This document shows, in pieces, positions 3-13,261 of a stretch of 20,477 nt of DNA. Position 1 is the first letter of the stretch. Each line of letters starts with the position of its first letter. This DNA comes from a virus. A program made the translations under genes and the position numbers. The DNA lies in the IMG/VR virus record IMGVR_UViG_3300022198_002427, positions 1-20,477 of that record; one strand, written 5' to 3'. Below the pieces are notes generated by a model. That model was not told the DNA's origin and did no database searches. It saw only the letters and a list, made by a program, of their open reading frames with translations.

Positions 3-938
3 ATTGTAAACGGCAGTTGGGGCCTTAGACAATTTGTTTCTTATGGAGCTCCATATCAAGTAAATTTTAGAGGATCATCATATTCTTCTGGAGACATAGA
101 AGGATCTAATTCATTTTTACCTCCAGTTTATAATATTTCTACAACTGGTGGTTATTATCAATTTTCTTCAGTTCATGCAACATCTCAAGCAACAGTTGAT
201 GAAATATTTGATGATCCTGATTGTAAAGACATAACTTTTATCTTTACTGCAGGTAATACGGGAAATCCTAGTGGTAAACATGATATTTTTAATGGAGTTG
301 ATTACAATAATCAATTTACTAGTGGAACTTTTTATTATGGAGGTGATATTGCTGAACCTTTTGGTGCGGTAGGTGAATATTTTAATCGTGCTGGAACTCC
401 ATCTATAGCACATCAGGGTCAAAATGATGCCGCTATTAGAGTTGGTTCTCTTGATAATGTTGTAGTTACAAGTGGAATAACTTCAGAAAGAAAAAGTAAT
501 TTTTCAAATACTGGGCCAGCAATTGATATTTGGTCAGCAGGATCGAACGTATTAAGTTCATATGGAACTGGATATGCTGATCCAAGAAATGGAACGTATT
601 TGAACGGTTATATAAGTGGAACAAGTATGGCAGCACCTCAGGTTACTGGAGTTATTGCATTATATTTGGAATCAAATCCATCAGCTACTAGAGTTGATTC
701 TAGGAATTGGTTATTAAAACATGGATCAGTTTTATTAGAAAATGGTCCAGGAAATCCTATTCTAGATACTTATAAAAATGTCAATCCAATTGGAGCAGGA
801 ACTTCAGTTTCTTACTGGTCAGATACTTATGGATTGAAAGGAGCTACAGCAAGAATTTTATATAATCCATTTGCAAATAATACTAGACCTTCAATTAGTG
901 GAGTAAATATTTCTGGCATATCGTTTAAACAATCATAA
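3..938 (+). CDS. Subtilisin-like serine protease (S8 family), 5' end outside the window
   Basis: The reading frame is open from the left edge and gives 311 residues of a peptidase S8 domain. Visible family motifs in order are VNGSWG near the edge, the oxyanion-hole region FTAGNTGN (Asn codon 255-257), SNFSNTGPAIDIWSAG, and the catalytic serine motif GTSMAAPQVTG (Ser codon 624-626). The catalytic Asp and His normally lie before the VNGSWG block, so they should be upstream of this window and cannot be checked. About 75 residues separate VNGSWG from AGN, and they are rich in Gly, Ser and aromatic residues. After the protease core there is a tail of about 70 residues ending in SGVNISGISFKQS. The gene is followed directly by small virion-type genes and then gp15, so a tail- or virion-associated protease is likely. 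The role could be processing of tail proteins or digestion of host surface protein; the sequence does not decide. Family call is firm, role is inference. Confidence 0.88.
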   Translation: MVNGSWGLRQFVSYGAPYQVNFRGSSYSSGDIEGSNSFLPPVYNISTTGGYYQFSSVHATSQATVDEIFDDPDCKDITFIFTAGNTGNPSGKHDIFNGVDYNNQFTSGTFYYGGDIAEPFGAVGEYFNRAGTPSIAHQGQNDAAIRVGSLDNVVVTSGITSERKSNFSNTGPAIDIWSAGSNVLSSYGTGYADPRNGTYLNGYISGTSMAAPQVTGVIALYLESNPSATRVDSRNWLLKHGSVLLENGPGNPILDTYKNVNPIGAGTSVSYWSDTYGLKGATARILYNPFANNTRPSISGVNISGISFKQS

Positions 939-3213: not shown

Positions 3214-4350
3214 ATGGGTTGGTCAGAAAAATATAAAAAGTCAATTGATTGTGATAATCCAAAAGGATTTTCTCAGAGAGCTCATTGCCAAGGAAAAAAG
3301 AAAAAAATGAATGAAGATCTTAGAAAGTGGTTTGGAAAAGGTGAAGAGGGTGGAGTAGGTGGTGGTGGATGGGATCGTTATAATGCAAAAGGAGAGCGTA
3401 TTGGAAAATGTGCTCGGGAACCAGGAGAACCAAAACCAAAATGCTTATCTAAAGAAAAAGCTGCAAAAATGTCTAAAGATGAAAGAGCAGCAGCTGTAAG
3501 AAGAAAAAGAGAGAAAGATCCAGTAGCAGATAGACCAGGAAAAGGAGGATCTCCAAAAATGGTATCAAATAAAATTGGTGAAGAATTTCTTTACGAAAAA
3601 AACGTTCCAACTAACCCATCTTTATGGTCAAGAGCAAAATCATTAGCAAGATCGAAATTTGATGTTTATCCATCAGCATATGCTAACGGTTGGGCAGCAA
3701 AATGGTACAAAAAAAGAGGTGGTGGTTGGAAATCCTCAAATAGCAATAATGAACAATTTTCAAATTGGAGAAAAGATTTAGAAGTAGAAAAAATTTCCGA
3801 AGAAAAAAGTCAAGATCATGAGTATTCAATGGCTCGTTCAGAATTATCCACAATTGTTTCTGCAGCAAAAAGACTACGTAAAAAGATGAAAGGAGAAGGT
3901 CAACTAAAAGCATGGGTTCAATCAAAAATTACAAAGGCATCTGACTATCTAGATACGGCTGCTGATTATGTTGATAGTGGAGAAATGAAAGAGCATGTTG
4001 AAAATATTCATGTTAATCCAATGTTTAAGATTGCAAATAAATTTTCTGATTGGAGATCAGAACTTGAACTTGATGAAGCAATTGATAAATCCAAAATGAA
4101 GTGTAATTCACCAAAGGCACAAGCAGTTGGAGACTCACTTACTGGAAAGTCTCATGTTGTAAAAGCATGTGAAGGTGGAAAAGAAAAGATTATTCGTTTT
4201 GGGCAAAGAGGTGTAAAAGGGTCTCCAAAAAAAGAAGGAGAATCTAAGGAATATGCTTCCAGGAGACATAGATTCCAATCTAGACATGCAAAGAATATTG
4301 CTAAAGGCAGAATGTCTGCAGCATACTGGGCAAACAAAGTTAAGTGGTGA
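3214..4350 (+). CDS. Large basic modular protein between the terminase genes; function unknown
   Basis: This 378-residue, Lys/Arg-rich protein seems to be assembled from several short modules. Residues 1-30 hold a Cys/His motif (DCDNPKGFSQRAHCQG). Residues 35-110 hold DLRKWFGKGEEGGVGGGGWD followed by GKCAREPGEPKPKCLSKEKA and a basic ARRK-like stretch. Residues 131-172 hold LWSRAKSLARSKFDVYPSAY continuing into ANGWAAKWYKKRGG, which resembles a small domain found in phages and large DNA viruses (I recall DUF5872, unverified). Residues 200-260 are helical (WVQSKITKASDYLDTAADYV). Residues 295-378 are very basic, ending RMSAAYWANKVKW. A motif is duplicated: FSNWRKDLEV (182-191) and FSDWRSELEL (277-286). 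EFLYE (124-128) is identical to the predicted gp21 cleavage site of gp23. A Shine-Dalgarno AAGGAG lies at 3196-3201. DNA-binding or internal head protein is possible, but unproven. Confidence 0.7.
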   Translation: MGWSEKYKKSIDCDNPKGFSQRAHCQGKKKKMNEDLRKWFGKGEEGGVGGGGWDRYNAKGERIGKCAREPGEPKPKCLSKEKAAKMSKDERAAAVRRKREKDPVADRPGKGGSPKMVSNKIGEEFLYEKNVPTNPSLWSRAKSLARSKFDVYPSAYANGWAAKWYKKRGGGWKSSNSNNEQFSNWRKDLEVEKISEEKSQDHEYSMARSELSTIVSAAKRLRKKMKGEGQLKAWVQSKITKASDYLDTAADYVDSGEMKEHVENIHVNPMFKIANKFSDWRSELELDEAIDKSKMKCNSPKAQAVGDSLTGKSHVVKACEGGKEKIIRFGQRGVKGSPKKEGESKEYASRRHRFQSRHAKNIAKGRMSAAYWANKVKW

Positions 4351-12610: not shown

Positions 12611-13261
12611 ATGAAATTAATCACGGAAGAAATTCAAAAAGTAGAATTTATCACAGAAGGAAAAGGTGCAGATCAAAAACACTATATTAAAGGTGTTTTT
12701 CTTCAATCCGAATGTGTAAATCGCAACGGAAGAATGTATCCTTTTCCAATCATGGAAAAGGAAGTTAAAAGATATAGCGATAACTTCATTAGTAAGGGTC
12801 GCGCTTTAGGAGAACTTGGTCATCCTGATGGCCCTACCATTAATTTGGATAGAGTTTCGCATAAAATTTGTGAGCTAAATCAAAATGGAAACAATTTCAT
12901 TGGTAAAGCTCAACTTCTAGAAACTCCAATGGGAAAGATTGCAAAATCTTTAATTAAAGAAGGAGTTACTTTAGGTGTTTCTTCTCGCGGTGTTGGATCA
13001 CTTAAAATGACCAATCAGGGTCATAAAATTGTTGGTGATGATTTCATGTTAGCAACTGCTGCTGATATCGTTGCCGATCCTTCTGCTCCTGATGCTTTTG
13101 TTCAGGGAATTATGGAAGGAAAAGAATGGGTGTGGGAAGGTGGAATTCTTCGTGAACAACTTGCAGAAAGAACCCAGAAGACTATAAACACTCTTGTTGA
13201 TCAAAAAAGACTTGAAGAGCATAAACTTGCTCTCTTTCAAAGATTTCTTCTAGATCTTTAA
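12611..13261 (+). CDS. gp21: gp21 prohead core protease
   Basis: The maturation protease of the capsid, 216 residues against 212 in T4, a serine protease of family U9/S77 with the herpesvirus assemblin fold. It cleaves scaffold, capsid and internal proteins at (L/I)-x-E sites and then itself. Visible motifs are SECVNRNGRMYPFPIMEKEV (33-52), the catalytic-His block LGELGHPDGPTINLDRVSHK (66-85, His71), the catalytic-Ser block TLGVSSRGVGSL (120-131, Ser124/125), and ADIVADPSAPDAFV (151-164). FITE|G at 13-17 fits the protease's own rule and may be a self-processing site. The gene has only an A-rich leader, so its translation may depend on coupling to the gene before. Confidence 0.96.
   Translation: MKLITEEIQKVEFITEGKGADQKHYIKGVFLQSECVNRNGRMYPFPIMEKEVKRYSDNFISKGRALGELGHPDGPTINLDRVSHKICELNQNGNNFIGKAQLLETPMGKIAKSLIKEGVTLGVSSRGVGSLKMTNQGHKIVGDDFMLATAADIVADPSAPDAFVQGIMEGKEWVWEGGILREQLAERTQKTINTLVDQKRLEEHKLALFQRFLLDL

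Follow-up and report, generated by a model that had tools for sequence, protein, structure and literature searches.

The virus record IMGVR_UViG_3300022198_002427, analysed over its whole length of 20,477 bases (hereafter, the window), opens inside a gene for a Peptidase_S8 subtilase, which we read as the active enzyme of a two-gene tail module, carried on a tail appendage (probability roughly 0.6) and, less surely, acting on a host surface protein. The reading builds on near-invariant catalytic residues across the family, on a strict pairing of the protease gene with an upstream tail-fibre-like gene and on the virion label of one homologue. This pairing suggests an enzyme that rides the tail and that may cleave proteins of the host surface or complete the fibre.

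The subtilase and its catalytic residues

The protease open reading frame (ORF) occupies positions 3-938 on the + strand and encodes 311 aa, with its 5' end lost at the contig edge. A preliminary description had identified here a subtilisin-like protease with intact Ser and Asn motifs, which our analysis confirms: the ORF matches Pfam Peptidase_S8 (PF00082) with an E-value of 2.1e-16 and 60.5 bits (curated cut-off, 21.8), and both the oxyanion-hole motif TAGN (246-257, +; Asn codon 255-257) and the catalytic Ser motif GTSMAAPQ (618-641, +; Ser codon 624-626) were located. Since the window is the complete record, the catalytic Asp and His fall outside its 5' edge. The missing N-terminal part was recovered from the near-identical contigs L001, L002 and L007, with S8 identities to the window of 95%, 95% and 91%, respectively. 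In L001 and L002 the full subtilase has 633 aa (95.3 bits against Peptidase_S8 for the L002 protein, with the same cut-off of 21.8), and residue n of the window ORF corresponds to residue n+322 of the full protein, so that the window encodes the C-terminal half, residues 323-633. The catalytic set of L002 comprises Asp177, His259, Asn407 (oxyanion) and Ser530, that is, the subtilase order D-H-S plus Asn; of these, Asn and Ser are encoded within the window, while Asp and His are known from the near-identical contigs alone, where they lie in the motifs VVIMDNG and WHGTHVAG (L001/L002), respectively. The Asp motif is DNG here versus DTG in most close relatives. The presence of Asp177 and His259 upstream leaves the activity proposed in the preliminary description unrefuted.

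Conservation of these residues was assessed at two depths. A first-round set of 45 homologues (28 IMG/VR loci and 17 phage records, near-duplicates included) kept Asp in 43/43, His in 43/43, Asn in 44/44 and Ser in 44/44 covered rows. With the wider homologue searches, two of which supplied the best 80 of 517 and the best 80 of 187 loci, 282 loci were examined, with five S-SCSM1 chunks and L029, a copy of the window, set aside; an S8 ORF was found in 280 of them, L054 and L185 being without. Dereplication yielded 164 homologues with a median pairwise identity of 0.29, in which the covered rows retain Asp in 159/160, His in 161/161, Asn in 163/163 and Ser in 163/163. The sole Asp exception is S-CAM1, with Glu at this position, and the four catalytic positions rank with the most conserved columns of the family. 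This comparison of triads across homologues strengthens the earlier proposal that activity is plausible.

The AF2 model of the L002 protein, built from 18 sequences, has a low mean pLDDT of 53.5; compared with solved subtilases, this low-confidence model reached a best Z of 19.6 (5wsl; VIA) over 240 residues at 3.4 Å. Across 58 length-matched close S8 pairs the median dN/dS was 0.20, a rough, ungapped estimate in which some of the pairs draw on the same contigs and misalignment is the likely cause of the few values >1. The kept catalytic residues, the subtilase fold and this dN/dS together make it very likely that activity is under selection and, judged from sequence, the subtilase is in all probability a catalytically competent enzyme.

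Genomic context of the protease gene

Downstream of the protease, the window continues with a short fibre-like ORF (957-1298, +), a head closure Hc2 match (phrog_460; 1305-1988, +) and the gp15 tail sheath stabiliser (1988-2785, +; PF16724, E 1.5e-87). A prohead protease of gp21 type follows at 12611-13261 (+; PF03420, E 3.1e-38), and other T4-like genes in the window encode the terminase subunits and the tail sheath. These neighbours confirm the T4-like virion gene block recognised in the preliminary description. Further, the portal protein is nearest to those of Synechococcus phage S-SRM01 (80.6%) and Prochlorococcus phage P-SSM2 (75.2%), which places the window phage with the T4-like phages of the cyanophage group. 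The capsid-maturation protease of gp21 type is a gene separate from the subtilase: the S8 ORF gave no match to PF03420 (gp21 prohead protease, S77), PF00082 being its sole domain. The T4 sheath family PF04984 itself bears the name 'subtilisin-like domain'; the S8 ORF gave no match to PF04984 either, and the sheath is another gene.

The C-terminal segment of the ORF at 957-1298 (SPNGTTFRIIVDNSG) resembles the ends of the partner proteins encoded upstream of the protease in L025, L118 and L119, and 67 profile matches place related segments, in many loci, in the gene that directly follows the protease.

A strict gene pair with a fibre-like partner

The position beside fibre-like genes noted earlier is borne out and takes the sharper form of a strict gene pair. 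In the 158 of the 164 homologues that have upstream sequence, we scored the gene ahead of the protease, and in 144 of these its C-terminus carries either of two domains, 115 being of type A and 29 of type B. Partner and protease genes are separated by -25 to +9 nt, mostly -4, -1, +1 or +4. Among the 14 homologues without either partner type, L025, L118 and L119 share a third kind of C-terminus and the others are mostly distant relatives. Profiles of types A and B, derived from 13 and 9 members, respectively, of this data set itself, gave 147 matches over the 1.365 Mb of these loci, every one at the C-terminus of its own ORF and 144 directly upstream of the protease. Exactly one S8 gene is present in each of 21 whole records scanned, and domain A occurs in 11 of them, each time directly before the protease; S-SCSM1 has one further copy, in the gene directly after the protease.

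Reciprocal searches by domain alone (best 80 of 214 and best 80 of 574 loci, some of whose contigs also appear in the subtilase-homologue searches) yielded 66 and 64 distinct ORFs, three in each set having no room downstream. The subtilase was the next gene in 54/63 cases for type A and in 61/61 for type B, 115/124 in total, and five of the nine type A exceptions carry the protease elsewhere in the locus. The C-terminal tallies of these reciprocal sets, 47/66 and 49/64, are too low because the first domain listed per ORF was scored. Eight named records were reached via the domain alone, with the protease next in S-SSM7, S-SCSM2R, Sf-FS3, AG-345-F15 and S-CAM1; no S8 as next gene was found in the remaining three, S-SRM01, S-SM2 and S-CAM7. 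In S-SRM01 the partner is followed, in S8's place, by a fibre with an S74 chaperone domain. The structural block of S-SM2 encodes a protein with DUF192 and DUF6321 domains (L369:4665-6788).

On the S8 tree, a quick FastTree reconstruction with long branches, the partner type changes 4 times, the minimum being 3 and the mean of shuffled assignments 40.4. The surroundings of the pair differ among phages. In the window clade it lies just ahead of Hc2- and gp15-like genes, whereas P-SSM2 and S-SCSM1 have it within tail-fibre clusters; in S-CREM1 and S-H38 its neighbours are baseplate-wedge genes, and in S-SSM7 it is next to a gp9 gene. The same pair in such differing settings thus behaves as one unit.

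Structure prediction for the type A domain (95 residues; pLDDT 94.8, 87 sequences) points with high confidence to the beta-sandwich fold that gp9, the connector of the long tail fibre in T4, adopts in its C-terminal domain; the best solved match was gp9 itself (1qex, 184-283; Z 11.6, 1.8 Å over 90 residues, 13% identity). Many other phage fibres bear this gp9-like fold as well (62 BFVD matches at E <= 0.001); it therefore marks a fibre end or socket and is unspecific for protease partners. Types A and B are dissimilar in the profile comparison (hhalign probability 0.2), so that a docking scheme shared by both would be conjectural. A single domain common to the two partner types was considered and is unsupported by the profile comparison.

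The N-terminal region

As for the leader that had been envisaged upstream of the window, an N-terminal propeptide-like domain is seen, on evidence that is suggestive at most and consists of model topology and sub-threshold matches. Residues 22-91 of the L002 model follow the beta-alpha-beta-beta-alpha-beta order of the I9 propeptide, in a block with pLDDT of ~50-81. Inhibitor_I9 was the commonest sub-threshold match (5/21 members, best E 0.0082), remaining below the cut-off in the member displayed; an hhalign comparison with three bacterial propeptides picked by eye reached a probability of 61.6 over just 22 columns, and the BPN' propeptide aligned to the N-terminus with an E-value of 0.97. 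Foldseek matches to the L002 model include unprocessed pro-subtilisin E. The resemblance of the N-terminus to a subtilisin (I9) propeptide is therefore suggestive.

A hydrophobic, signal-peptide-like stretch was absent from the first 35 residues in 158/159 homologues. Four of five bacterial controls have such a stretch, the fifth scoring 1.59 against a line set at 1.6. The protein is thus probably not exported via an ordinary signal peptide.

Virion association and domain fusions

The S-SCSM1 report describes 45 virion proteins analysed by mass spectrometry (PMC9602691), and the GenBank record of this phage marks 48 CDS as virion protein, compared with the 45 of that text. Both the protease SSCSM1_228 and its partner SSCSM1_227 carry the mark, as does the prohead protease. 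NMNAT bears the mark and several genes predicted to belong to the baseplate lack it, so that the mark appears to follow the mass spectrometry data, inexactly. For this subtilase family the label comes from a single phage, S-SCSM1, with a homologue that shares 41% identity with the window ORF. S-CREM1 also carries the S8 gene, as SCREM1_165, and the passages of the main text that deal with its 14 detected virion proteins leave the peptidase unnamed (PMC9964418). The virion protease envisaged in the preliminary description hence gains indirect support from one labelled homologue, and we consider the subtilase a probable virion component.

Several family members carry additional domains. The S-SCSM1 protease is fused to C-terminal Laminin_G_3 lectin-type domains, and in the distant relatives L122 and L131 the fusion is to Gly_rich_2, a glycine-rich domain of a kind that occurs in tail-fibre tips. 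The AG-345-F15 subtilase (L057:5250-7703) has an insert that looks cupredoxin-like by eye (YNCEYHGPM), and S-CAM1 (L056), the homologue with Glu for the catalytic Asp, has a similar-looking stretch. The S-MbCM7 protease (L039:4140-7061) extends ~500 residues past the Ser, with weak esterase and plastocyanin matches. Lectin-type, glycine-rich and cupredoxin-like additions suit an exposed appendage.

Proposed mode of action and alternatives

In the course of events that we propose, the protease would be synthesised as a cytoplasmic proenzyme, its propeptide resembling I9, and would dock onto the terminal domain of its partner, as the fibre does onto gp9. By analogy with that connector, docking on the partner is reasonably likely. 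The docked protease would then travel on the phage tail and, after host contact, might cut a surface protein much as tailspike depolymerases cut surface glycans. This last step is the weakest: a substrate on the host surface, again argued by analogy, falls a little short of even odds. Virion enzymes that give access to the cell are known mainly for cutting glycans or the cell wall. Host-surface cutting is favoured over fibre maturation. A fuller picture, which we put forward tentatively, is that of a protease-tipped appendage in which a gp9-like socket holds an active subtilase that clears or tests a proteinaceous host surface, the pair being exchanged as a unit and related phages placing a passive fibre there. 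A conserved subtilase that many marine T4-like phages pair with a fibre of connector type would implicate picocyanobacterial protein layers as barrier or receptor, and the gene pair could be used for host-range and entry work in the cultured phages P-SSM2, S-SCSM1 and S-SSM7.

The alternative that survives best, although we regard it as unlikely, is a morphogenetic protease that, as particles assemble, cuts its partner fibre or another one nearby, its copies in virions being leftovers comparable to those of capsid proteases acting on the scaffold. The tight gene pair would fit such a role, and an enzyme with a propeptide-like N-terminus and no signal peptide could act inside the infected cell; maturation proteases can also stay in virions, as the label on the S-SCSM1 prohead protease illustrates. 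However, the conserved domain of the partner is its extreme C-terminus and is retained in the gene, so that a cut removing it would need explaining, and lectin-type and glycine-rich fusions would be odd for an assembly enzyme.

Much less probable is an intracellular effector that degrades host proteins at take-over and sits among the late genes by mere position. The near-general absence of a signal-peptide-like stretch (158/159) agrees with an intracellular site of action, but the strict pairing with fibre-like genes across differing surroundings and the virion label in S-SCSM1 speak against it. Least credible of all is the non-catalytic fold used as an adhesin that the preliminary description had also entertained: pseudoenzymes do occur in the subtilase superfamily, the CspC_non_triad model matched the P-SSM2 protein weakly and S-CAM1 has exchanged its Asp for Glu, but with D, H, N and S near-invariant in the homologues and all four among the most conserved columns an inactive fold is disfavoured.

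Relation to known systems

The records of P-SSM2 (PSSM2_297) and S-SSM7 (SSSM7_232) file the S8 family as T4-GC 292, and an S8 peptidase of P-HM1/P-HM2 (T4-GC518) is mentioned in print (PMC3037559). The family has thus already been annotated in cyanophages and the gene itself is not new. We found no paper on the function of this cyanophage S8 family in the open-access literature, where its strict pairing with a gp9-like fibre end also appears to be undescribed. The window ORF belongs to the same family as T4-GC 292, being 47% identical to the P-SSM2 protein and 41% to SSCSM1_228 of S-SCSM1, with the same catalytic residues and the same upstream type A partner in these loci. It differs from them in setting, since the P-SSM2 and S-SCSM1 modules lie in tail-fibre clusters and that of the window clade before Hc2-/gp15-like genes, and the S-SCSM1 protein has, in addition, long C-terminal lectin-type additions.

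Secreted bacterial subtilases of the proteinase K/aqualysin type share the fold and the catalytic machinery with the phage protein, whose N-terminus may also be a propeptide like theirs, whereas the phage protein has no signal-peptide-like stretch, contains large inserts and is encoded in a gene pair. A search of genome contigs, bearing on a possible bacterial origin, gave matches that were all partial and lay around the catalytic motifs, with a best E-value of 5e-10 among the best 80 of at least 134 relatives.

Among T4 proteins, gp9 is the one whose C-terminal fold the type A domain is predicted to adopt. In T4 the protein docked on gp9 is the fibre gp34 and no enzyme; here, the product of the following gene, the protease, would occupy the place of the fibre. 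Many partners are, unlike gp9, long fibre-like proteins, and the match is limited to the C-terminal domain. The T4 gp21 prohead protease (S77) is likewise a serine protease in the virion gene block, but it belongs to a different family and a gp21-type gene is separately present in the window. A possible likeness to tail-borne depolymerases is suggested by the one homologue labelled as a virion protein, that of S-SCSM1. A cyanophage virion peptidase has been described in A-1(L), whose hub peptidase domain is reported to lyse host cells (PMC10966104). It differs in being a baseplate-hub domain; the passages describing it do not use the term subtilase, and the word 'subtilisin' is absent from the main text.

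A diverged patch around the oxyanion residue

The window and L001 differ at 37 of 8,817 positions, 32 of which fall within window positions 44-548, leaving 5 mismatches in the ~8.3 kb outside this interval. Against L002, the divergence concentrates in a patch of the S8 gene at 144-439 (+), with 30 mismatches in 296 bp and near-identical DNA around it. The codon differences in the S8 ORF comprise 16 nonsynonymous and 10 synonymous codons. The patch has the appearance of an allelic exchange in the region of the oxyanion Asn, a residue that is itself unchanged. No donor for 144-439 was found among the compared loci, the best match being 90.7%. Judged from the 40 least-diverged of 120 other close pairs compared, out of 360, the S8 gene does not regularly exceed its flanks in variability. 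In view of this and of the low median dN/dS, we rejected both positive selection on the protease and a general hypervariability of it. Mismatches to L002 cluster densely once more at window positions 4182-4287 (14 in 106 bp), near the end of the ORF at 3214-4350; this cluster is absent in the comparison with L001.
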